64,000 nt of DNA from Terriglobia bacterium (GTDB lineage Bacteria > Acidobacteriota > Terriglobia > Bryobacterales > Bryobacteraceae). The DNA lies in contig JAIQFK010000004.1 in the NCBI GenBank assembly GCA_020073305.1, positions 186,001 to 250,000 of the forward strand. The letters run 5' to 3'. Of the stretch, positions 17,586 through 30,276 are shown one piece after another. The notes beneath the pieces were generated by a model. That model saw nothing but the letters and a program-made list of their open reading frames with translations, made no database searches and had not been told where the DNA came from. The translations under genes and the position numbers were made by a program. Position 1 is the first letter of the stretch, and the number at the start of each line of letters is the position of its first letter.

Positions 17586-20500
17586 TTATCGCTGAACGGT
17601 CAGAAAGACGTTCGGTTGACTCGACGTGCCAGCGATGTTCGCTACCACAGCCTGATCCCCATTGGGGACATCCGGGACGAGTACGTTGAACTGATAGAGT
17701 CCCTGGCCCACCAGGCCGGCAAACTTGATTGTGGCCGCCACCCCGCCGATCTGAATGGTGAGCTGGCCTGGAATGGCGAGCGGCGCCGCGCCCGCAAAGA
17801 TTTCGTCCGTAAGCACGGCTGGGCTGGTCGGCCCGAAGCCGGTACCGAATAGCGAAATGATTTCACCAGGTTTGGCGGGTTGCGTGGTCGCGGCGCTACC
17901 GAACAAGCCGGACTTCCCTAGGAATGCCCCGTTAGCGTGAACCGCGGCCAGATATCTGCGGTTCTCCGGATCGAACAGGAAGAAACCCGGTAGATAAGTC
18001 TGCAATGTCGCCGCTGCGGCGGCGCTGGTTCCCTGAGCATTGGTGACAGTCACCCGGACCGATCCGAGTGCGCTATCGGAAGGCGCTAGCGCGTTGATCT
18101 GTGTGGGACTGATGAAGTACACAGGGGCGTCTTTGCCATTGACCTTGACGCTGACGCCGTCCAGGATGACTGGCAGCCTGTTGCCGACAAAATCCGCAGC
18201 AGTCCAGAGACGTGTGGTCGCCGAAAGATGATCGCCATAGATCGTAATCCACGAACCACTCGCAATGCCGGCCTGAAAGCTGGCGGCATTTGTGACGCCG
18301 CTGGGTGAAATTTGGGGCAAAAACGCGGCTGCGAGCGAGTGGAAGGCGGCTACCACCAGATTGCGGGCGCGCTGCCCTCCCACGCGGCCGGGGTTGTTGT
18401 CGTCGCCGAACGCGATGCCCGCCGCGCCATCGTCGGAACCGCCGGTGGCCGGGATCGACACCGAGGTAGAGGACGCGCCGTTCTGTATGAACGTCAGCAA
18501 CTGTCCGTCCAGCGCCACTTGCAACTGGCTGCCCTGCGCGGCCATCTCCACCGTGTGGAAAATGGTGTTGTCGAACCTGACCTGCGGTGCGGTGGAAGCC
18601 ACCACCACGGAGGAGCTGAGGTTTTTCACCTTAACCGTGCCGGTGCTGTCGAGCTGTGTCCAGTAGCCGGAGGAATCGCCGCCGATGATGCCATCGCGGG
18701 CGGCCGCGGCCCGGCCATGGAAATACGGGCCCGCCTGCGAGATATGGCTGGTCACGTCTGGGGGAACGTACAGTTCCGCCTTGATGTTGAGATCGTGGCC
18801 AACGTTCACGCCCCGCTGGCCAGAGCTGCAGGCGTTCGGAGAATCGGTTACCTGCACACCGCTGTATCCCTGGCCGTTATTCTGCAAGGCGCCGGAGACA
18901 ATGCCGGCATCGGCTGTGAAGATGGGCAGATAGTAGTACGTGCCACTGCCGCCGAGTGAAAGATCCGCCGGTCCGAGCGAACAACTGCCGGAGTCCGCCC
19001 GGTTGAAAGTGTCGGAAAAGAGGACCGCAACGGGCGGCGCAGAGGCAGCCACGCCCTGCCCTGTGAGTGAGACGCTGACGCTCGGCTGAGTGGGATCGTT
19101 CGAGGCAATGGTGAGCGTTCCGTTCTTCGAGCCTGCCGTTTTCGGGCTGAAGCGAATGGTGACTGTTCGCTGGCCACCCGCCGGTAGGTCGAATGGCGTG
19201 GAGGGTGAGACAACACGGAATGGGCCTGTCACGATGGACAGCGAGCTGACCGCCAGCGACGCTGCGCCCGTATTCTGCACCGTGAGCGAAACATCTTTGG
19301 TTTGGCCCGCGCCGACGTTGCCGAAGGCCAGGCTGGTCGGCGTCACGGAAATGGAGGGTACGGGTGAAACTTGATTCTGCCCGCCGGTTACCGAGACGGT
19401 GGTTGTGGCATTAGCCGGATCGTTGCTCGAAATCGTAAGCGTTCCGGTTTGCCCGCCCGTAGCCGTTGGCGTGAACCGAACGGTAACTTGTTGCCGCCCC
19501 TGCGCCGGCAGGGTGAGAGGCGCCGCCGGTGAAACCAGCGTAAAGACGGGATTGTCAATGCCAAGCGAGTGCACGGTCAACGGCCCATTTCCTTTGTTCC
19601 GCACCCAGATAGTTTGGTTCGCAATCTGGCCCGGCGTAACGATGCCGAAAGCCAGGCTCGGCGGCGCTTCAATGCGCGGGGTGGCGGTGATTTCGATCGG
19701 TCCTACGATGGCCGAGGCCGTGGTCACTCCGCTTGTCGCCAGCACGCGGAAATAGGTCTTCGTGCCGGCTTGGATCTCGGCGGTATCGAAGGTGAAGGAA
19801 GGCTGCTGCAGATCCACTTCCATTGGAACCCACGAGTTGCCGCCATCGGCGGAGTACTGGACAACGTAAGAGAGCGGGTTTCCTTTGGGATCGGACCCAG
19901 ACCAGGTGATGGTGTTTGAGCCATTCCATTTGTCGCCCGCGCTGGGTTTGAGGATCTTCAGCGAGGGCGCCTGGCTGCTGACCGTCAAGGAAGCCAGTTC
20001 CTGCGCCCGATGGCGAAGGGCGATACGGGTGGTCCCAGCCGGAAGAGCGACCCTGAAGGAGAAACTTTCTGCGTCGAGGGGTGCAAATGTTTCCCGGGAC
20101 CGGAAGGCTAGCGTAAAGCAAAAGTCGCTGGATGCGCCGCCACTGGTGATGAACCGCAGACAATGATTGCCCGCGGGATCGGAGGACTCGCCGGGCGTCA
20201 CGGCGGTGAGCTGATAGGCCGGATCCAGGCTGCCGGCCGTGCCGTCGGCGCGCGCTGAGCCGCCGATCAGAAGGTATTCGGACGCGATGTTTTGTGGCTG
20301 CGCGGCGGCCGGTTGCGCTGTGTCAGACACCGAAGGCGCCACCGGCGCCGATGCCGCCCGCTGCAGCGCCTGCGAGCTGATCAGCTGTCCGTAATGAAAG
20401 TCAGAGATCCAGATATTGGACAGAGGATCGTAGCAATACGACATCAGGTCCATCTTCGTGGAAGGTTTCACCTCCATAGTGAGGGGATCCATACCGATCT

Positions 20501-22061
20501 CTTGAATCGTGGCGTCCGGGAGCTTCCAATCACCATCGGGGTCCTCTGCCTTGCAGCCATCCGCCGTGTTGGTATGCCTGAGTCCCATGTTGTGGCCCGT
20601 CTCGTGAGCCAGAATCCACCCGATATTTTCCGTGGTCCCGCTGGTGTCTTCGTTGAAAGTAACCCGGCTCGTGCCTCCCTCTCCGGCCCACGACGCGTCC
20701 GCCATGCCGCCCTGTTCGGCGCCTGGAATATTCGGCAGCCAAGCTGCAAGCTGATCGACGTTGCCGTAGTGGGCCTCCAGGATCAGATAAGCCTTTCGCA
20801 ATGTGGTGAACATCTGGTCGACGTCGTCGGAAGTGATCAGCGGCTTGGTCCAGGTCTTTTGCGGAATCTGCAGAGGCACATACCGCACACCGTCATCGGG
20901 AATAGGGTAAAGCTTCGGGATCAGAGTATCGGCGCCGCTCACATTGGCAGTGGGACATTTTTTTTCCTCCCCTGGCGGCTGATAGCAAATGGGCCAGTAG
21001 TAAATGTTCAAGGGATACGGAATGTTGGCGAGAGCCGTGAATGTCACCGGTTGTGGGAAAGTGTTGTTGGCCGTGTTCTGCTCCGTAACTCCGGCGGGCG
21101 GGCTGACTCCGGCCACCAGCCGGATGGACCCGGCCGCAGTCCAGTTCTTTGGCAGTAAAAAATTGAGCGAGTCGCCGGCGTTGGCGGGATTCCATTCGAC
21201 CGGCACGGTGATGGCATGGTTGGCGGGTGCGAGCGGCGAGCCGGGCAACTCCACGCCGTTCCGGAAGCCGCGTAGAGTTCCGGAGACGCCCGCCAGCGGC
21301 TGCGCATTGTTGCCGCTCACCGTCGCGAACACGCGGACGGCCGTGCTCTTGTTGGCAATCAGCGGCATGCTGTTGTGCTCGTCCTGGATCACCTGCACGA
21401 CTTCCACCGTGTCCACCGCCAAATCGAGCGCAGACGCGACGGGTCCTGTCGAGAGCGCGTATGTAGTCGTGACCGAGAAGCCGAAAGAGGCCCCCGTGCC
21501 GTCCGCTCGGGTCACGAAGATCGAGCCCCCGTATTTGAAGGTGAACTGTTGCGGGCTATTTGTGCCCACTGAGATCCAGTTCAGAGTGCATGGACTGCTG
21601 GCCGAAAGGTTGCTCGTGCCCTGCGGCACAGGGTCGTCGGTGTTCACGATCGTGCAAGCCTGGGGCTGGTATGGGTCGTAGTCCACAATGGTGATCTGGT
21701 CCGAGAAAGTGCCGTCGGCTGTGGTGAAGGTGCCGGACAGGCCGATCGATGCCTGGAATGGCGATTGAAACATCAGAGAACCAAAAGAGGCACCCATGCT
21801 GGCTGCCGGGGCGACTGCGGGAAAACTCAGCGTGACCTGTGCCTGAATGGACGCTCCTTTGCAATCAGCCGTGACTGGAAACGTCGCGTTTGGCGTCGTG
21901 TAGTTGGCTGGCGGCGAATCCGCAATATTACAGCTTTGTTCCCCGGAAACGGTTACCTGGTGGGATACGAAAGTCCCCGTGTAGCTTTGCCCATGCAGCG
22001 CTCCGCAGCCTGCAAGGAACCATAAAGCCAAGTTTCGGATCTGTTTCTGCACGCCGTCCAC
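17586..22061 (-). CDS. Very large secreted metzincin-like protein with choice-of-anchor D repeats and Solibacter-type C-terminus
   Basis: Exported protein of 1491 residues, starting GTG 22061 (GTG 22052 also possible) with a signal peptide (LALWFLAGCGALHGQ). Residues 486-496 read HETGHNMGLRH, a complete HExxHxxGxxH metzincin zinc site, in a peptidase region from roughly 360 to 600. A fibronectin-like region near 700-790 follows. Two choice-of-anchor D repeats (LAFGIVTPGQ and LAFGNVGAGQ, each ending in a SNDP segment) occupy about 810-1020. A laminin-G-like part and a C-terminal Ig-like domain of the type common in Solibacter (VTNAASFQAGIASGSWITI, LFGTGFGPTSP) complete it. It is probably a cell-surface or extracellular protease. 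It is convergent with the histidine kinase, with 16 bases between the stops. Confidence 0.82.
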   Translation of the reverse strand: MDGVQKQIRNLALWFLAGCGALHGQSYTGTFVSHQVTVSGEQSCNIADSPPANYTTPNATFPVTADCKGASIQAQVTLSFPAVAPAASMGASFGSLMFQSPFQASIGLSGTFTTADGTFSDQITIVDYDPYQPQACTIVNTDDPVPQGTSNLSASSPCTLNWISVGTNSPQQFTFKYGGSIFVTRADGTGASFGFSVTTTYALSTGPVASALDLAVDTVEVVQVIQDEHNSMPLIANKSTAVRVFATVSGNNAQPLAGVSGTLRGFRNGVELPGSPLAPANHAITVPVEWNPANAGDSLNFLLPKNWTAAGSIRLVAGVSPPAGVTEQNTANNTFPQPVTFTALANIPYPLNIYYWPICYQPPGEEKKCPTANVSGADTLIPKLYPIPDDGVRYVPLQIPQKTWTKPLITSDDVDQMFTTLRKAYLILEAHYGNVDQLAAWLPNIPGAEQGGMADASWAGEGGTSRVTFNEDTSGTTENIGWILAHETGHNMGLRHTNTADGCKAEDPDGDWKLPDATIQEIGMDPLTMEVKPSTKMDLMSYCYDPLSNIWISDFHYGQLISSQALQRAASAPVAPSVSDTAQPAAAQPQNIASEYLLIGGSARADGTAGSLDPAYQLTAVTPGESSDPAGNHCLRFITSGGASSDFCFTLAFRSRETFAPLDAESFSFRVALPAGTTRIALRHRAQELASLTVSSQAPSLKILKPSAGDKWNGSNTITWSGSDPKGNPLSYVVQYSADGGNSWVPMEVDLQQPSFTFDTAEIQAGTKTYFRVLATSGVTTASAIVGPIEITATPRIEAPPSLAFGIVTPGQIANQTIWVRNKGNGPLTVHSLGIDNPVFTLVSPAAPLTLPAQGRQQVTVRFTPTATGGQTGTLTISSNDPANATTTVSVTGGQNQVSPVPSISVTPTSLAFGNVGAGQTKDVSLTVQNTGAASLAVSSLSIVTGPFRVVSPSTPFDLPAGGQRTVTIRFSPKTAGSKNGTLTIASNDPTQPSVSVSLTGQGVAASAPPVAVLFSDTFNRADSGSCSLGPADLSLGGSGTYYYLPIFTADAGIVSGALQNNGQGYSGVQVTDSPNACSSGQRGVNVGHDLNIKAELYVPPDVTSHISQAGPYFHGRAAAARDGIIGGDSSGYWTQLDSTGTVKVKNLSSSVVVASTAPQVRFDNTIFHTVEMAAQGSQLQVALDGQLLTFIQNGASSTSVSIPATGGSDDGAAGIAFGDDNNPGRVGGQRARNLVVAAFHSLAAAFLPQISPSGVTNAASFQAGIASGSWITIYGDHLSATTRLWTAADFVGNRLPVILDGVSVKVNGKDAPVYFISPTQINALAPSDSALGSVRVTVTNAQGTSAAAAATLQTYLPGFFLFDPENRRYLAAVHANGAFLGKSGLFGSAATTQPAKPGEIISLFGTGFGPTSPAVLTDEIFAGAAPLAIPGQLTIQIGGVAATIKFAGLVGQGLYQFNVLVPDVPNGDQAVVANIAGTSSQPNVFLTVQR

Positions 22062-24035: not shown

Positions 24036-25754
24036 CTAAGTCTTTTTTTCTTTTACGCTTACGACCTCTTCTATGGTTGTTGTGGCCGCCGTCGCCTGGC
24101 GCTGATAATCCTCCAGGCGGGCGCGTTCTTCATCCTCCGTCACGGCCCTCAGGCTGAGCCCGATTTTTTTCTCCGACTCATTCATTTTAATGATCTTGAA
24201 GTCGTGTTCCTGCCCGACTTCGATGGGCGGCGCCTCGGATTTGCGGCCGGAGTAGCCCGGCACCTCCGAGTAATGGCACAATCCTTCCACGCCCTCGGCC
24301 AGCTCCACAAATGCGCCGAAGCCCGCGAGGCGGCAAACGCGGCCATGCACCATGTCGCCGACGTGATGGGTTTGAAAATATCGTTCCCAGGCATCGGGTT
24401 GCAGTTGTTTCAGGCCCAACGACAGGCGGTGCGACTTGGCGTCGATGGCCAGAATGACGGCCTGCACGATCTGCCCCTTCTTCAGCACCTCGGAGGGATG
24501 CTTGACGCGCTTGGTCCAGGAAAGATCGGAGACATGCACGAGTCCGTCAATGCCTTCCTCGATTTCCACGAATGCCCCGAAATCGGTCATGTTGCGGACG
24601 CGGCCTTCGACGACCGAGCCCACGCTGTAACGGTCTTCAATGGTCGTCCACGGATTGGGCTCGAGTTGCTTCAGTCCCAGCGAGATGCGGCGCTCCTTGG
24701 AGTGGACGTCGAGAACCACAGCCTCCACCTGGTCGCCCGGGCTGACCACTTTGGCGGGATGTTTCATGCGCCGCGACCAGGTCATTTCGGTCACGTGGAT
24801 CAGGCCTTCCACGCCCGGCTCGAGCTCGACGAAAGCCCCGTAATCGGTGACATTCACGACGCGTCCGACCACGCGGCTGTTCACCGTGTAGCGCTCGACG
24901 ACGCCTTCCCAGGGATCTGGCGCCAGTTGCTTCATGCCGAGCGACACACGCTCGCGGGTGCGATCGAACTTCAGAACCTTGACGGTTACTTCGTCACCGG
25001 GGTGCACGACCTCGGAGGGGTGACCTACGCGACCGTAGGACATGTCGGTAACATGCAACAGGCCATCGATGCCGCCCAGATCAATGAACGCACCGTACTC
25101 GGTGAGGTTCTTGACTACGCCGGTTACCACGGCTCCCTCTTGCAGGTGTTCGAGCGTGGTCGTCTTGCGCTCAGTGGCTTCCTGCTCCACGGCCAGCTTG
25201 CGTGAAACCACGACGTTTCCGCGACGGCGGTTCAGCTTAATGATTTTGACGGGAATGTCCTGGCCAATGAAGGAGTCGAGGTTGCGCACCGGCCGCGGAT
25301 CGATCTGGGACCCGGGCATGAAGCCGTTGATCCCGACATCCACGGAGAGTCCGCCTTTCACGCGTCCGAGCACACGGCCAGAGATAATCAACTGCTCCTG
25401 AAACGCTTTTTCGAGATTCTCCCAGACCCGCAGGCGCGCGGCCTTCTCATGCGAGAGCAGAATGTAGCCCTCGACCTCTTCGCCATGGTCGATCATGACG
25501 TCGACCACATCACCGGGATGGACGTGAATCTCGCCGGCGGGGGAGCGGAACTGTTCGATGGGGACCAAGCCTTCGGATTTGTATCCGAAGTCGATAATCA
25601 CTTCCTGGCCGGTGACTTTCAGCACGCGGCCTTCGAGGATCTCGCCTTCAGCGGGGGGAACAAAGTGGCTGTAGTCGTCGAGGAGGTGTTCGTAGTCCTC
25701 CGTGTTGGTTTGAACGGGCTGTTCCACCTTCCCGCTGTTCTGGTCGACGGCCAT
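24036..25754 (-). CDS. rpsA: 30S ribosomal protein S1
   Basis: RNA-binding ribosomal protein of 572 residues that helps load messenger RNA. Six S1 domains can be counted, beginning at GEILEGRVLK, ISGRVLGRVKG, GAVVTGVVKN, SRVVGRVVNV, GSVVEGRVRN and GDMVHGRVCR. Domains 3-5 are the most alike (YGAFIDL, YGAFVEL, FGAFVEI). The start is ATG 25754, seven bases after GGAG; a TTG two codons earlier is a weaker choice. A consensus promoter at 25918-25946 leaves a leader of about 155 bases. Confidence 0.95.
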   Translation of the reverse strand: MAVDQNSGKVEQPVQTNTEDYEHLLDDYSHFVPPAEGEILEGRVLKVTGQEVIIDFGYKSEGLVPIEQFRSPAGEIHVHPGDVVDVMIDHGEEVEGYILLSHEKAARLRVWENLEKAFQEQLIISGRVLGRVKGGLSVDVGINGFMPGSQIDPRPVRNLDSFIGQDIPVKIIKLNRRRGNVVVSRKLAVEQEATERKTTTLEHLQEGAVVTGVVKNLTEYGAFIDLGGIDGLLHVTDMSYGRVGHPSEVVHPGDEVTVKVLKFDRTRERVSLGMKQLAPDPWEGVVERYTVNSRVVGRVVNVTDYGAFVELEPGVEGLIHVTEMTWSRRMKHPAKVVSPGDQVEAVVLDVHSKERRISLGLKQLEPNPWTTIEDRYSVGSVVEGRVRNMTDFGAFVEIEEGIDGLVHVSDLSWTKRVKHPSEVLKKGQIVQAVILAIDAKSHRLSLGLKQLQPDAWERYFQTHHVGDMVHGRVCRLAGFGAFVELAEGVEGLCHYSEVPGYSGRKSEAPPIEVGQEHDFKIIKMNESEKKIGLSLRAVTEDEERARLEDYQRQATAATTTIEEVVSVKEKKT

Positions 25755-25917
25755 GGCCAATCTCCGGCGTCACTGATTTCTTAAAGGCTCGCGGAAACAC
25801 AGATCGCGCGATGTGTCATAAAACTGGGAGTTGAATCGAGACTTCGGTGGGTACCCCTCCAGCCGAAATCGCTGCGCAAGACCACAAACAAACCAATAAT
25901 AATCAGTATGTTAAACG

Positions 25918-25946
25918 AATATAGCCGAGACATTTACGGATGTCAA
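25918..25946 (-). promoter_or_regulatory. rpsA promoter
   Basis: On the minus strand: a perfect TTGACA (-35, 25941-25946), 17-base spacer, and TATATT (-10, 25918-25923). This is the best sigma70-type promoter in the window and fits a highly expressed ribosomal gene. It puts the transcript start near 25911. Confidence 0.75.
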
Positions 25947-26050: not shown

Positions 26051-26079
26051 TTGAATTTATGAGCCCGCGCTAATACAAT
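26051..26079 (+). promoter_or_regulatory. Promoter of the secreted kinase-like gene
   Basis: TTGAAT (-35, 26051-26056), 17-base spacer, TACAAT (-10, 26074-26079). A GAGG ribosome site follows seven bases before the ATG at 26105. Confidence 0.65.
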
Positions 26080-26104: not shown

Positions 26105-26938
26105 ATGCATCACAACACGCGCTACTTAAGGTACGGCCTGCCGGTGCTTCTGGCGATATCGCAGCTCGCGCTGGGGGAGGAGCCCGCCAAGCACTACTCG
26201 CGCGCCGAGATTGAAGATTTTCTGTTGCACGCGAATGTGGTGGACAGGAAGGAACTGGGGGTCGGGGTGACCAACTCAGCACGCGCCACGCTTTCCGACG
26301 GCAAGCTGGAGCATCTTGCCCACATCCAGAGCATCGATGAGACGAAAGCGGAATACAAGACGGCACGCGGCACGGAACTGAATTTCAAAGATACCTACAA
26401 GTACAACATTGCGGCTTACAGGCTGGACAAGATTCTCGATCTGAACATGATCCCCGCCTCCGTGGAACGCAAGATCGCCGGAAAGTCCTGCGCAGTGACG
26501 TGGTGGGTAGACGACAAGATGTTCGACGAAATCGACCGCGTGAAACAAGGTCTGGCGCCTCCCGATCTCGACGCGTGGAACAAGCAAATGTACGTGGTGA
26601 GGGTGTTCGATCAGTTGATCGATAACACGGATCGCAATCTGGGCAATCTGGTGATCGACAAGCAGTGGCGCATGTGGATGATCGACCACACGCGCGCGTT
26701 TCGCACCACCACGAAGATTCGGAGCGAAGCCAACCTGGTGATGTGCGATCGCAAGCTGCTGGCCGGTATGCGCAAACTGGATGAAGACACGTTGAACGAG
26801 CAATTGCGGCCTTACTTGAACAAAACCGAGATCAAGGCGATGCTGGCGCGCCGTGACAAGATCGTGAAGTTTTTCGAGGAGGCGGTAACCAACAAGGGAC
26901 AAGGCGCGGTGCTGTACGATATGCCGCCGCGGGAATGA
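26105..26938 (+). CDS. Secreted protein with a protein-kinase-like fold (HipA/PI3K/FAM20-type motifs), function unknown
   Basis: Protein of 277 residues with an N-terminal signal peptide (YGLPVLLAISQLALG). I recognise no named family with certainty, but the order of motifs fits a reduced kinase fold. A Gly/beta-rich stretch (LGVGVTNSARATLSDG, 51-66) comes first. A helix follows with INTACT-looking KYNIAAYRLDKILDLN (99-114), as in kinase helix C regions. Next is the catalytic-loop-like DNTDRNLGN (173-181), comparable to HipA NxDxHxxN and PI4K DRHxxN. Last is the metal-binding-like MIDHTRAF (192-199), comparable to IDHGLAF/DFG. It would act outside the cytoplasm, where ATP is scarce. It has its own promoter and stands alone. 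Confidence 0.6.
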   Translation: MHHNTRYLRYGLPVLLAISQLALGEEPAKHYSRAEIEDFLLHANVVDRKELGVGVTNSARATLSDGKLEHLAHIQSIDETKAEYKTARGTELNFKDTYKYNIAAYRLDKILDLNMIPASVERKIAGKSCAVTWWVDDKMFDEIDRVKQGLAPPDLDAWNKQMYVVRVFDQLIDNTDRNLGNLVIDKQWRMWMIDHTRAFRTTTKIRSEANLVMCDRKLLAGMRKLDEDTLNEQLRPYLNKTEIKAMLARRDKIVKFFEEAVTNKGQGAVLYDMPPRE

Positions 26939-26962: not shown

Positions 26963-28354
26963 TTAGATGGGCAGCAGGACGTCGACGGTGGTGCCTTTGC
27001 CGGGCTCGCTGGTAATCTGAATCTCGCCGCCGTGCTCGAAGACGATCTGGCGCGCGCTGAACAGGCTCCAGTTTCCCGTGGAGACGCGGCCGGCGAGGAC
27101 CCGGAAGCCCGGGTCGAAGATGGTTTCCAGCTCCAGGGCTTCCATGCCGCGGCCCGTATCCTCAATGCGGATGCGAGCCAGGGAATCCACTTTCCGTGTG
27201 GAAACGACGATGCGGCCTTCGCCGTTCACCGCGTTGATGGCGTTGCTCAACAGACTCGAAAACACGGTGGTGAGCTGCTGCGGGCGGCAGTGTAACGGTG
27301 GAAGCGGCTCGAAATCGAACTCGAGTTTCACGTTCTCCTGGAGCGCGGGTTTGAGCCGGACGGCCACATCTCCCAGCAACTCATTCAAATCGGCGGCCTG
27401 CCGCTCGGTGTGATCGAGATCAATGAACCTCTGCAGGCGGGCGATCACTTTCTTCAGCCGTTCCATGCCGTCGTTCACGGAGCGCCGGAGCTCGGCCTGC
27501 ATGGTGACCAGACGGGGCTGCTGCTCCGGGGGCGCAGTGGCCTGCTTGGCAGCCAGCACGATCATGGTGTCGATAGAACTCTTGAGGGCTCCCAACGGGG
27601 TGTTCAGCTCGTGCGTCAAGGCTGCTGCCAGGCGACCCACAGAGATGGCGTTTTCCGAAAGCAGGGCGCGCACCGGCGCCGCCGCCAGTTCCTGGGCGAT
27701 GCGAAGGCTCTCCTGCTGCGCGCGAGAGCTGGCGCTGCGCTGTGCGTAGAGAACGGCGGCCAAGCTTGTAGTCAGGGGGACGAGCAGGAACAGGAAGGCT
27801 AAATGAGACGGGTCCCAGGTATTCCAGTCGAGCACCCGCAACAGCGCTCCACCGATGAAGGCGACCACGTATGCCAACCAGATGGACCCACCCAGCAGGA
27901 AGGTGTCTAGCGGCCGCAGAGGACAGACGGTGATGGCCACCAGCAGGATAGTCGTAATGTGCACGGAGATGTATTCGTCGGAAGCATGGGGCATGAGGGC
28001 GAGCGAAGAACCGATGACCACCGCCGAAGAGATCCAGCCGGAGAGGCAGAGGAAAAACGCGGAATGGCTCCGCGCGGGCCGGGTCTCAGCGGTCCAGAGA
28101 GTGAGCACCGCGACCAGGACTACCAGCACTGCCTGCCAGGCGCGGGCCGCGATGGGCCCTTCGCCGGGGGCGAGGCCGGGCACCAGCGCATCGGTGACCA
28201 TCCGTGCGACAAACACAAAGCCGGCCAGAGCCATTTCCGTCCAGCCCATGATCCGGATGGCCGCATGGCTCAGTTGGCGCACTTCGGACAGAAACCGGAG
28301 GTCCTGGTTTTCCAAGTCGGGAAGCAGAAGATCGCGCAGGCGGCGCAAATCCAT
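26963..28354 (-). CDS. Membrane sensor histidine kinase
   Basis: Protein of 463 residues. The N-terminal ~205 residues contain about six membrane helices and no large outside domain. The HisKA box follows with His248 in LTHELNTPLG, then the HATPase domain with an N-box (SNAINAV), G1 DTGRGM and a C-terminal GGEIQI...GKGTTV end. The unusual HExNTPLG box is shared with the kinase at 28947. It is divergent from the cNMP/kinase/receiver module, with 133 bases between the two sets, so it may feed the same pathway. Confidence 0.87.
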   Translation of the reverse strand: MDLRRLRDLLLPDLENQDLRFLSEVRQLSHAAIRIMGWTEMALAGFVFVARMVTDALVPGLAPGEGPIAARAWQAVLVVLVAVLTLWTAETRPARSHSAFFLCLSGWISSAVVIGSSLALMPHASDEYISVHITTILLVAITVCPLRPLDTFLLGGSIWLAYVVAFIGGALLRVLDWNTWDPSHLAFLFLLVPLTTSLAAVLYAQRSASSRAQQESLRIAQELAAAPVRALLSENAISVGRLAAALTHELNTPLGALKSSIDTMIVLAAKQATAPPEQQPRLVTMQAELRRSVNDGMERLKKVIARLQRFIDLDHTERQAADLNELLGDVAVRLKPALQENVKLEFDFEPLPPLHCRPQQLTTVFSSLLSNAINAVNGEGRIVVSTRKVDSLARIRIEDTGRGMEALELETIFDPGFRVLAGRVSTGNWSLFSARQIVFEHGGEIQITSEPGKGTTVDVLLPI

Positions 28355-28487
28355 AGCATTACTGTAACGCGCCCCGCATGCCGTGCGTGAAGAAATGGTG
28401 TGTTAAGCTACCTAGGCGCGGGTGAACAAGGGGAGACGGTTCCCTTCGGTCGCGGCTCGGTAAGCAACCGGGCCTAGGCAGACAGAG

Positions 28488-28910
28488 ATGGCTGGACTCA
28501 ACATTGTAGAAAAGGTGATTGCGCTCGAAGGTGTGGAGTTGCTGAAGAACTTGACGCCGGAGCAGCTCTCGCGCATTGCTTCGATTGCCCGCGAGGTAAA
28601 GCACCCGCCCAACAAGGTAATTCTCGATCCGTCGATTCCGATGGACGCCCTGTTGGTGGTAGTGGATGGCTCGGTCGAGTTGAGCCGCGACGGGGAGGTG
28701 TTGCACACGGCGAAGCAGAACGACGTGCTCGGCGCGTGGGCCTTGTTCGACAACGATCCCATGCCGGTCACGGCCAAGACCGTGGAGGACACGCGCTTGC
28801 TGCGGATCGGCCGCGATGATTTCTACGACCTGCTTTCGGACAACGCCGAAATCACAGCCGCCATTTTTTCCACGCTGGTGAAACGCTTCCGCAAGTTAGT
28901 AGGCCAATGA
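28488..28910 (+). CDS. Stand-alone cyclic-nucleotide-binding-domain protein
   Basis: Protein of 140 residues made of one cNMP-binding beta-barrel (CRP/FNR type). It begins with the usual helix (LLKNLTPEQLSRIASIA) and shows the strand pattern PPNKVILDPSIPMDALLVVV, DGSVELSRDGEV, DVLGAWALFDNDPMPVTAKTVEDTRLLRI and the final helices. No DNA-binding helix-turn-helix follows, so it must act through a partner. The phosphate-binding cassette is not canonical (GAWALFDNDPMPVTA rather than GE.al....R.A). It opens a three-gene set with a kinase and a receiver. Confidence 0.82.
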   Translation: MAGLNIVEKVIALEGVELLKNLTPEQLSRIASIAREVKHPPNKVILDPSIPMDALLVVVDGSVELSRDGEVLHTAKQNDVLGAWALFDNDPMPVTAKTVEDTRLLRIGRDDFYDLLSDNAEITAAIFSTLVKRFRKLVGQ

Positions 28911-28946
28911 CGGCGCCGATGGTTGTGAGGTGAGGAGCAGGCGCCG

Positions 28947-29777
28947 GTGAGCCAGCCTTCAAATCCGCCGGAGTTCGCGAACGAACTGGAGGAACTGCGG
29001 GCGAGGGCCGACAGCCTGGCCACGCAGTTGGCGCAGTCGTACAAGATGGCTTCGATCGGCCGCCTGCTGGCGGGCATCGTGCACGAGATCAACACGCCGA
29101 TCGGCTCGATTCTCTCGAATAACCAGGTGCTCTACCGGTCGCTCGAACTGGTCAAATCGGCGTTGGCGAACGGCGATAAGGATTCGCTGGCAAAGGCCAA
29201 CCGTTTGGTCGAGACGTGCTTGTCGCTGATTGCGATCGATAAGATCGCCTGCGAGCGCATCTCCGACGTGGTTCGCGGCCTGAAGACGTTCGCTCGCGCG
29301 GAGAGCTCCGAGGTGCGCAAGGCGGATCTGAACCAGCAGCTTCAGGACACCCTGAAGCTCACGCAAGGCGAGTTTCGCCAGCGCATCAAGGTGGAAACGG
29401 ATTGGGGCCAAATTCCACAGGTCGAATGCCACGGGAACATGCTCAGCCAGGTATTTCTGAATATCCTGGTGAATGCCGGACAGGCCATCCAGGGCGAGGG
29501 AAAAATTACCGTGCGTACCCGCCACGAGGGCGACTCTGTTCATATTTCCATTGCGGACACGGGGCCAGGCATCAAGCCCGAGGATCGGCCCAAGATCTTT
29601 GCCGGCGGTTTCACGACCAAAGCCGTGGGCGTGGGGACGGGCCTGGGCCTCGCGCTGTCGAAAAAGATTGTGGAGGAAACACACGGCGGCTCGCTCCATT
29701 TCGAGAGCGAGATTGGGATTGGAACCACGTTCCATATTCTGGTTCCTATTGAGCAGAAGAAGAAAGCGGAAGGTTAG
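28947..29777 (+). CDS. Soluble histidine kinase
   Basis: Cytoplasmic kinase of 276 residues with no membrane segment or separate sensor. A short coiled coil (ELEELRARADSLATQLAQ) leads to the HisKA box, with His46 in IVHEINTPIG. A complete HATPase domain follows: LVNAGQAIQ (N-box), DTGPGIKPED (G1), GTGLGLALSKKIVEETHGG (G2). The start is GTG 28947 with GAGGAG about ten bases before it. It lies 36 bases after the cNMP protein and 25 bases before the receiver protein. Input probably comes from the cNMP protein (inference from order). Confidence 0.9.
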   Translation: MSQPSNPPEFANELEELRARADSLATQLAQSYKMASIGRLLAGIVHEINTPIGSILSNNQVLYRSLELVKSALANGDKDSLAKANRLVETCLSLIAIDKIACERISDVVRGLKTFARAESSEVRKADLNQQLQDTLKLTQGEFRQRIKVETDWGQIPQVECHGNMLSQVFLNILVNAGQAIQGEGKITVRTRHEGDSVHISIADTGPGIKPEDRPKIFAGGFTTKAVGVGTGLGLALSKKIVEETHGGSLHFESEIGIGTTFHILVPIEQKKKAEG

Positions 29778-29802
29778 AGTTTTCTGGAGGCAGTACTTGG
29801 GG

Positions 29803-30276
29803 ATGATTGAGAAGGCATCTGTATTGATCGTCGACGACGAAGAGATGGTGATCACCAGTGTGAGAGCCTATCTGGAGCTGGAGACCAACTTCGAGGTTCA
29901 CGGCTTCACCGAACCCGAGCAGGCGGTGAAGTTCCTGGAAAGCAACCTGGTGGACATCGCCGTGTCGGACTACCTGATGCCCCGGATGAGCGGCATTCAG
30001 TTCCTGACGCGCGCCAAGCAGCTGCAGCCGGAGGCCACCCGCGTGCTGCTGACCGGCCACGCCGACAAGCAAAGCGCCATCCAGGCGATCAACGAAGTGA
30101 GCCTGTATCAGTACGTCGAGAAGCCATGGGAGAACGCGCAGTTGCTGATGATCATCCAGAACGGGATCGAGCGCGCGCAACTGCTGCGGGAGCTGCGGGC
30201 TACCATGTCCGAACTGTCCACCGCACACTCCAGTTTGAAGGACGTGCAGAAGAAGCTGCTGAAGGCGTTTCTGTAG
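29803..30276 (+). CDS. Response regulator with receiver domain and C-terminal coiled coil
   Basis: Protein of 157 residues. The receiver is complete: acidic IVDDEE (11-14), phospho-acceptor Asp56 in AVSDYLMPRMSG, Thr in LLTGHAD and Lys in YVEKPW. The YVEKPW end is typical of RpfG/HoxA-type receivers. After the receiver only a helical tail remains (ERAQLLRELRATMSELSTAH), with no output enzyme or DNA-binding domain. The start is ATG 29803, which gives the conserved receiver N-terminus; a longer reading of the frame runs back into the kinase gene and is not supported. It is the likely partner of the kinase before it. Confidence 0.9.
   Translation: MIEKASVLIVDDEEMVITSVRAYLELETNFEVHGFTEPEQAVKFLESNLVDIAVSDYLMPRMSGIQFLTRAKQLQPEATRVLLTGHADKQSAIQAINEVSLYQYVEKPWENAQLLMIIQNGIERAQLLRELRATMSELSTAHSSLKDVQKKLLKAFL

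Follow-up and report, generated by a model that had tools for sequence, protein, structure and literature searches.

The window, that is, the whole 64,000-nucleotide stretch of DNA analysed here, comes from a Terriglobia genome of 7.0 Mb (51 contigs, 99.9% complete, 5.0% contaminated) and carries a plus-strand gene for a protein with an export signal and a kinase fold. The main features of this gene and the genes that follow it are given below. Conservation refers to a 69-row alignment of the family, comprising those rows with at least 180 model positions out of 75 non-redundant family ORFs in the fetched loci; 51 rows make up the clade of the window protein (the Q clade) and 18 carry Lys or Arg at position 75 (the K/R rows).

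26105..26938, + strand: gene for a secreted FAM20-like kinase-fold protein, 277 aa, ATG start (ORF, translation and AlphaFold2 model, with FAM20 as the best structural match)
26105..26176, + strand: signal peptide, residues about 1–24, MHHNTRYLRYGLPVLLAISQLALG/EEP, cleavage site estimated (sequence, simple signal test and low pLDDT at residues 1–20)
26630..26632, + strand: D176, catalytic-loop Asp (kept in 51/51 Q-clade rows and 15/18 K/R rows)
26645..26647, + strand: N181, metal-binding Asn of the catalytic loop (kept in 51/51 Q-clade rows and 13/18 K/R rows)
26684..26686, + strand: D194, metal-binding Asp at the DFG position (kept in 69/69 rows)
26963..28354, − strand: gene of a sensor histidine kinase (assigned by inspection) that converges on the kinase gene (60% identical homolog at the same place in the sister genome G002)
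28355..28487, no strand: junction at which G002 has an NTT-HEAT transporter gene of 914 aa (locus L070, 8324–11065) that is absent in the window
28488..28910, + strand: gene with a cyclic-nucleotide-binding domain (cNBD; Pfam PF00027; by tblastn 87% identity to the gene that immediately follows NTT-HEAT in G002)

An earlier note, made from the letters of the DNA, had described this ORF as having kinase-like catalytic and metal-binding motifs, and the frame with D176, N181 and D194 all present bears this out. The two motifs, DNTDRNLGN (residues 173–181) and IDHTRAF (residues 193–199), had been read correctly, and the gap between them is 11 residues rather than the 10 given. A conserved upstream helix had been matched to helix C, in agreement with a helix at residues 99–111 of our model. 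The structure prediction and fold comparison that the note had called for were run, and they returned a kinase fold rather than a structure without one. The clear signal peptide it had described was also recovered: the window N-terminus passed a simple home-made check (n-region, hydrophobic core and cleavage), as did 24 of 25 family N-termini, window protein included, with L020 as the sole failure; start codons for this test were picked by hand, in several cases with the signal already in view. Mean Kyte-Doolittle hydropathy over 19 residues gave no second membrane helix at the usual value (0.73 for the window protein, family maximum 1.42), and a few members (L028, L030, L021) have signals that look Tat-like by eye. 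The sequence thus speaks against a cytoplasmic location.

The gene had also been credited with its own strong promoter, which did not hold up. The 11/12 match to the −35/−10 consensus belongs to the minus strand (25946..25918); on the plus strand, the site at 26051..26079 matches at 9/12. The near-consensus minus-strand element (TTGACA-17-TATATT, 25918–25946) probably serves the divergent ribosomal S1-like gene at 24036..25760 (−). The minus-strand gene at 17586–22061 encodes 1491 aa with internal repeats and HETGHNMGLRH, a motif resembling that of zinc proteases (by eye).

The gene order in G002 is kinase, convergent histidine kinase, NTT-HEAT and cNBD gene, and that of the window is identical minus NTT-HEAT. 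Since the pairing of NTT-HEAT with a cNBD gene behind it has been described, its function being left open in the excerpted text of Major et al, 2017 (PMC5381601), loss of NTT-HEAT in the window is likelier than gain in G002, and the window cNBD gene is probably a remnant of such a pair. We considered whether the cNBD gene is a transporter fragment and rejected this, as it has no match to the G002 NTT-HEAT protein and is a separate gene behind it. The convergent histidine kinase was likewise rejected as a general partner: it has a full-length homolog in G002 and a 33-residue piece by the G005 kinase (L023/L071), and elsewhere distant matches only. By inspection, 26963–30276 is a signalling cluster of a histidine kinase (−), a cNMP-binding protein, a second histidine kinase and a response regulator; G002 shares this order, with NTT-HEAT interposed.

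A bacterial family related to FAM20

The kinase family is multi-copy, and the window genome has two further copies, 46% and 49% identical to the window protein. It was found in 80 of 396 Acidobacteriota genomes across the phylum and in 10 of 41 near relatives (the window genome counted among the 41). Copy numbers are minima, since the up to six matches reported per genome equal the number of kinase candidates scored (with 3 for the transporter and 4 for the phosphatase described below), and genomes counted here as without a gene are those in which it was not found. A scan of genome contigs with the window protein gave nine matches, labelled Acidobacteria, Acidobacteriales or Terriglobia, and a plasmid search gave one weak match (9e-3), of a Nonomuraea record to a family member with Lys at position 75 and Glu at position 101 (K/E type).

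The AlphaFold2 model of the window protein, built with the family alignment, reached a pLDDT of 90.4 and a pTM of 0.85. Foldseek placed chains of FAM20A or FAM20C in all of its 12 top rows, with E from 1e-9 to 2e-7. VIA-align placed it on Hydra Fam20 with Z 20.1 at 3.3 Å over 233 residues (model residues 29–275, C-terminal helices included), followed by DrFam20C (19.4), PI4K-II (about 18), CtkA (15.5), HipA (11.8) and PI3K (about 10); the best structural match, 5xoo, is a sugar-containing structure of the Hydra glycosaminoglycan xylosylkinase. A separate model of a K/E-type member (pLDDT 91.1) gave Z 20.7 with Hydra Fam20 at 25% identity.

Sequence comparisons were made with the window protein and with family profiles. 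Profile A1 holds 24 of 33 ORFs; those omitted were partial L012 (two pieces), the second L026 ORF and fragments from L013 (two), L029, L031 (two) and L032, and L005 duplicates L017 in the ORF set. Profile A2 holds 54 rows, and profile A3, for the K/E branch, holds 15 of the 18 K/R rows, the three without the catalytic Asp being deliberately omitted. The window protein alone found only FAM20A (0.075 and 0.14), A1 picked up FAM20A at 1.5e-5, and A3 retrieved the sequences of six FAM20 chains (1e-11 to 2e-8), then PI4K-II at 0.003; the A3 rows below PI4K-II (hemagglutinins and others, at 0.09 or above, among the best 60 of 95) are at chance level. In Pfam, the window protein hit only kinase models below threshold: HipA_2 (2.8e-4; 20.7 bits against a cut-off of 27), ABC1 (5.8e-4) and PI3_PI4_kinase (0.028). 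It has no listed match to Pfam Fam20C at E 10 and so falls short of that cut-off; 4 of 24 members match this model at E up to 1 (best 0.0012). The best NCBIfam model for 24 of 24 members was TIGR03843, the SCO1664 family (best E 8.6e-13; 1.8e-12 for the window protein), and a Kdo-kinase model matched all 24 aligned members weakly (best 8.5e-6).

Structure and sequence agree in placing FAM20 closest among known families. The window protein is a relative rather than a member, because it stays below the Pfam Fam20C cut-off and lacks the ATP lysine as well as the disulfide framework. Like FAM20A/B/C of the animal secretory pathway it is exported, the fold is shared over nearly the whole mature chain, and its family has the same order of motifs (beta-3 FKP, helix-C AEIAAF, DRH and DNGRGF, C-terminal helices included). 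It differs in being bacterial, in its length below 280 aa, in the ties of its family to a transporter and a phosphatase, in Gln for the ATP lysine and Asn for a helix-C Glu and, from the alignment, in a catalytic-loop Asn where FAM20 has Glu. FAM20 kinases carry several disulfides, whereas the window protein has only two cysteines (129 and 214).

PI4K type II and PI3K have the fold (and, as in the window family, a D-R-N..N catalytic loop) with a weaker sequence match, and unlike it they are cytosolic lipid kinases. HipA/HipA_2 and CtkA share the fold and catalytic motifs, though HipA_2 stays below its Pfam cut-off; these are cytoplasmic or toxin kinases with other partners. The SCO1664 model scored 47.1 bits for the window protein, but its curated cut-off is 172.4. 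CotH, a spore-coat kinase, is also bacterial and phosphorylates an outer cell layer (polyphosphorylation of CotB, in the excerpted text of PMC7821199); its fold match, Z 11.6, is with the K/E-type model only, and no Pfam CotH row appeared among the matches listed.

The earlier assignment to a FAM20, PI4K or HipA type of kinase therefore stood as to fold, with FAM20 closest. It had missed that in this protein Gln75 replaces the beta-3 lysine and Asn101 occupies the place of a helix-C Glu.

The Gln75/Asn101 active site

Four positions outside the catalytic and metal loops define this active site:

26282..26284, + strand: R60, basic, second beta strand, proposed second ATP-phosphate contact (R in 44/51 Q-clade rows); its counterpart is presumably a FAM20 lysine, matched by eye
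26327..26329, + strand: Q75, in the position of the ATP lysine on strand beta-3, aligned with Lys of FAM20 ‘FKP’ (69 rows: Q49 K12 R6 S1 A1)
26390..26392, + strand: D96, acidic, start of helix C, at the position of the essential FAM20C Glu to within a one-residue gap (D63 E6 of 69 rows; DrFam20C alignment)
26405..26407, + strand: N101, at the place of Glu in FAM20 ‘AEIAAF’ (N48 E16 of 69 rows), varying together with position 75

The placement of N101 on the ‘AEIAAF’ Glu is agreed by two alignments, and a third sets this Glu two residues earlier. The comparison of D96 follows Glu213/Gln258 of the FAM20 kinases (PMC5413348, as excerpted), and in the FAM20A alignment the D96 column falls in a gap.

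Positions 75 and 101 covary, with Lys or Arg plus Glu in 16 rows and Gln plus Asn in 46. None of the 51 Q-clade rows retains the beta-3 Lys, and at position 101 they have Asn in 48, Ser in 2 and Asp in 1. In a tree calculated with positions 75 and 101 removed, a branch with SH-aLRT 98 set the 51 non-basic rows apart from the others; the coupling is therefore one event, not many, and the Q75/N101 change is a single event on the tree. All three copies found in the window genome are of this Q/N type.

The rest of the active site is strictly kept. D176, N181, D194, R197 and F199 are invariant in all 24 aligned members, the window protein included, and over the 69 rows D176 is kept in 66, N181 in 64 and D194 in 69, far beyond chance. 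Within the Q clade, D96, W133, D176, N181, D194, R197, F199 and R200 never vary in 51 rows, and R177 does (R36 P10 A5); the K/R rows are looser, with D176 in 15, N181 in 13 and D194 in 18 of 18. Since a loss of catalysis predicts the opposite, the Q-clade proteins are in our view probably active, though unusual, enzymes that grip ATP differently, and R60 and D96 might make up for Q75 and N101. A migrated ATP lysine at position 81 was considered and rejected, as this position (K in 33 and R in 6 of 51 Q-clade rows) is not invariant. Against activity of a lysine-less protein counts the K271A mutant of Fam20C, which does not bind ATP (PMC5413348, same excerpt). Given Q75 and N101, the label ‘kinase’ has thus still to be earned by this clade.

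Transporter and phosphatase partners

The earlier note had seen no obvious partner for the gene. This changed once the family was considered as a whole: comparison of neighbors across loci gave two recurrent families, identified with Pfam as a TLC ATP/ADP transporter homolog (TLC/NTT, PF03219) and a calcineurin-like phosphoesterase (PF00149), the latter a secreted metallophosphatase. Four linked transporter genes scored 57.3, 74.1, 38.6 and 62.9 bits with PF03219 (cut-off 21), and two of these four full genes have HEAT repeats; a fifth, the clipped fragment L006 2–397, had no Pfam match. These TLC scores are moderate, and nucleotide transport by this branch is putative.

PF03219 was found (E 1e-3) in 125 of 396 genomes, 123 of which exceed the curated cut-off; none of the 14 control genomes, searched with PF03219 and PF07804 only, had a match to it. 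A TLC/NTT homolog is present in 79 of 80 genomes with the kinase, against 46 of 316 others (Fisher 6e-49); Fisher values overstate significance here, as genomes share ancestry. The sole kinase genome without a transporter match, G237, also has the weakest kinase match (3.6e-5). The link holds at closer range, among near relatives (n=41; 10/10 kinase genomes against 5/31 others) and in the window’s own family (7/7 against 4/18, p 7e-4), with G007 counted in both although its transporter match is below the curated cut-off. An unrelated kinase family of like frequency, HipA_C, taken as a control, shows no such link (28/80 against 90/316, p 0.27). Because 46 of the 396 genomes carry TLC/NTT homologs without a detected kinase of this family, the transporters have other uses too and may there serve another user.

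Genes of the two families are also found close together. Among the matches listed (150 kinase and 133 transporter rows, pieces of one gene counted once, by hand), 31 of 134 kinase genes have a transporter gene no more than 8 kb away, and these come from 22 of the 66 genomes with both genes listed, where 0.9 would be expected with distances taken start to start, rounded genome sizes and uniform placement. As only these 31 adjoin a transporter, most kinase copies stand alone.

The phosphatase was found at E 1e-50 in 69 of 396 genomes, namely 64 of 80 with the kinase and 5 of 316 others; these counts use their own cut, and the 1e-20 cut of the search gives 84/396. Its motifs are of the PPP type, with GDxxDRG and GNHE in 7 of 7 rows and GDxHG in 6 of 7 (ADIHG in L009), all three phosphatases scanned scored 54.0 to 59.1 bits with PF00149 (cut-off 21.5), and the N-terminus is hydrophobic and signal-like by eye. 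Among the matches listed, 50 kinase rows lie within 6 kb of a phosphatase, in 36 of the 59 genomes with both.

In 11 genomes the two are fused, with the phosphatase N-terminal and the kinase C-terminal; ten of these were confirmed as single open frames and the eleventh is in L130, all frames being taken stop to stop with start codons not fixed. Genes on the same strand run phosphatase-kinase-transporter-kinase in L128 and fusion-transporter-kinase in L118. Judged by their motifs, parts of the kinase family have turned into pseudoenzymes, since by eye the fused kinase domains of L118, L123 and L130 lack the catalytic Asp motif (e.g. DDCRNEKDTLI...VDFSEAF) and the fused phosphatase of L122 has degenerate metal motifs. 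The pseudokinase fusions of L118, L123 and L130 adjoin further kinase copies, possibly as pairs of regulator and enzyme like FAM20A/FAM20C.

The 55 fetched kinase loci, 17 with a transporter match and 16 with a phosphatase match, were partly picked for having them, and some regions were fetched after the transporter or phosphatase coordinates were known; they were used for anatomy, not counts. Both active-site types occur next to partner genes. The Q/N type lies beside a transporter in L008, L009, L011, L012, L070 and L072, and beside a phosphatase in L006, L008, L009, L011, L067 and L087.

Two other kinds of gene were seen in these regions. A small protein with a signal-like N-terminus, a possible substrate, is encoded beside the kinase in L009 (7473–7832), L008 (7344–7784) and L072 (5299–5736); that of L009 lies between transporter and kinase and is weakly DUF5666-like, below cut-off. 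A lipoprotein-like gene of about 280 aa lies inside kinase/transporter clusters in L066 (7236–8096) and L065 (6329–7156), 68–69% identical between these two genomes, which belong to different families.

In the window genome itself, none of the kinase genes has a transporter or phosphatase gene as its neighbor, the partners being on contigs other than the three kinase contigs. Elsewhere it has two genes resembling NTT-HEAT of G002, with identities of 53% and 49% to it (58.7 and 36.7 bits with PF03219 per frame), and one phosphatase with a signal-like N-terminus. As the partners are not adjacent there, the module link in this genome is drawn from genome content and the sister genome. Its three kinases all being Q/N type, the module, if working there, runs on Q/N-type enzymes.

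A proposed extracytoplasmic phosphorylation module

ATP is generally taken to be absent outside the inner membrane of bacteria, and exported kinases therefore raise the question of an ATP source. Our preferred reading, which we regard as moderately probable, is that the window protein is an exported phosphotransferase of FAM20 fold, between the membranes or on the cell surface, within a small module for reversible phosphorylation that has a nucleotide supply of its own. The signal peptide seen in the sequence would export the mature domain. The genetically linked TLC/NTT transporter of the inner membrane would swap ATP for ADP and so feed nucleotide outside; an animal parallel is SLC35B1/AXER, which carries ATP into the ER lumen (PMC6113206, as excerpted). 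The kinase may bind Mg/Mn-ATP through N181 and D194, with D176 as the base for phosphate transfer, and in the window clade, where Q75 and N101 replace the lysine-glutamate pair, the conserved R60 and D96 may assume phosphate contacts. The linked PPP-type metallophosphatase, secreted and sometimes part of the same polypeptide, would strip the phosphate. Candidate substrates are an exported protein or a glycan.

The glycan option overlaps with this reading, as it concerns the same module: the protein would be an extracytoplasmic sugar kinase acting on a cell-surface glycan, like Fam20B (a xylose kinase) or KdkA. This option deserves consideration: the xylosylkinase 5xoo ranks first among the structural matches, the Kdo-kinase model weakly matches 24/24 members, and FAM20B-type activity arose first in animals according to the excerpted text of PMC5865150. 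However, the top FAM20 rows differ by less than 1 Z, so B and C are not distinguished, and no recurrent glycan gene was noticed by eye among the loci listed; we take this chemistry to be possible though rather less than likely. Unlikely, in our estimate, is that the clade consists of secreted pseudokinases, nucleotide-binding or structural regulators without catalysis, as FAM20A is for FAM20C. Such a role would suit the absence of both the beta-3 Lys and the position-101 Glu in 51/51 clade rows, as well as the loss of D176 in some K/E-branch and fused members, and FAM20A, with one essential Glu changed to Gln, binds ATP upside down without metal (PMC5413348, as excerpted). Set against this are D176, N181 and D194, each in 51/51 rows of the Q clade and looser in the K/R rows (15, 13 and 18 of 18), and a window genome in which no K/E paralog was found to regulate, yet transporters and phosphatase are retained.

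An active site that is unusual yet strictly conserved could also belong to a secreted transferase that has drawn another chemistry from the kinase fold, such as AMPylation or glutamylation; kinase folds with an altered ATP grip can switch chemistry, as in SelO and SidJ. The paired or fused PPP-type phosphatase suits phosphate esters better, and we consider this improbable. That the gene encodes an ordinary cytoplasmic HipA-like kinase with a hydrophobic N-terminus by chance is barely credible: it could draw on the Pfam HipA_2 match at 2.8e-4, below cut-off, but N-termini are signal-like in 24/25 members despite poor conservation there, and the fold is nearer to FAM20 than to HipA by about 8 Z units. 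A cytoplasmic HipA-like toxin in particular was ruled out by the signal peptides, the fold ranking and the window neighbors, among which inspection found no antitoxin-like or HipB-like partner; the neighbors are the S1-like gene and the histidine kinase gene.

Beyond the phosphotransferase module proposed for the window protein, we tentatively suggest, as a claim that falls somewhat short of probable, that free-living bacteria have a dedicated extracytoplasmic phosphorylation system of FAM20-like kinases, a PPP eraser and ATP-exporting NTT-HEAT transporters, in which the window clade has Gln-Asn for the near-universal Lys-Glu and is still active. Each component belongs to a known superfamily. 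The linked transporter often combines PF03219 with HEAT repeats, and in G002 has a cNBD gene behind it, as in the NTT-HEAT and NTT-HEAT-cNBD proteins of Major et al, 2017 (PMC5381601); its excerpted text holds no kinase or phosphatase link, and the window family has both. Among the top papers of our literature search, with most subscription journals and preprints outside its scope, none was found to describe a FAM20-like kinase family in bacteria, its lysine-less clade or a link between kinase, NTT transporter and phosphatase; absence from print does not follow from this.

The clade would be a natural lysine-less kinase group with an otherwise invariant active site. As the kinase was found without an ATP/ADP exchange homolog in only 1 of 80 genomes, the question of the ATP source is testable with three genes. 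If the proposal is true, it would give a role to the uncharacterised NTT-HEAT transporters of free-living bacteria, left open in the excerpts of PMC5381601, and would place FAM20-type secretory phosphorylation, with its own eraser, in bacteria. If ATP export for external phosphorylation holds, the family would be more than a variant of known superfamilies.
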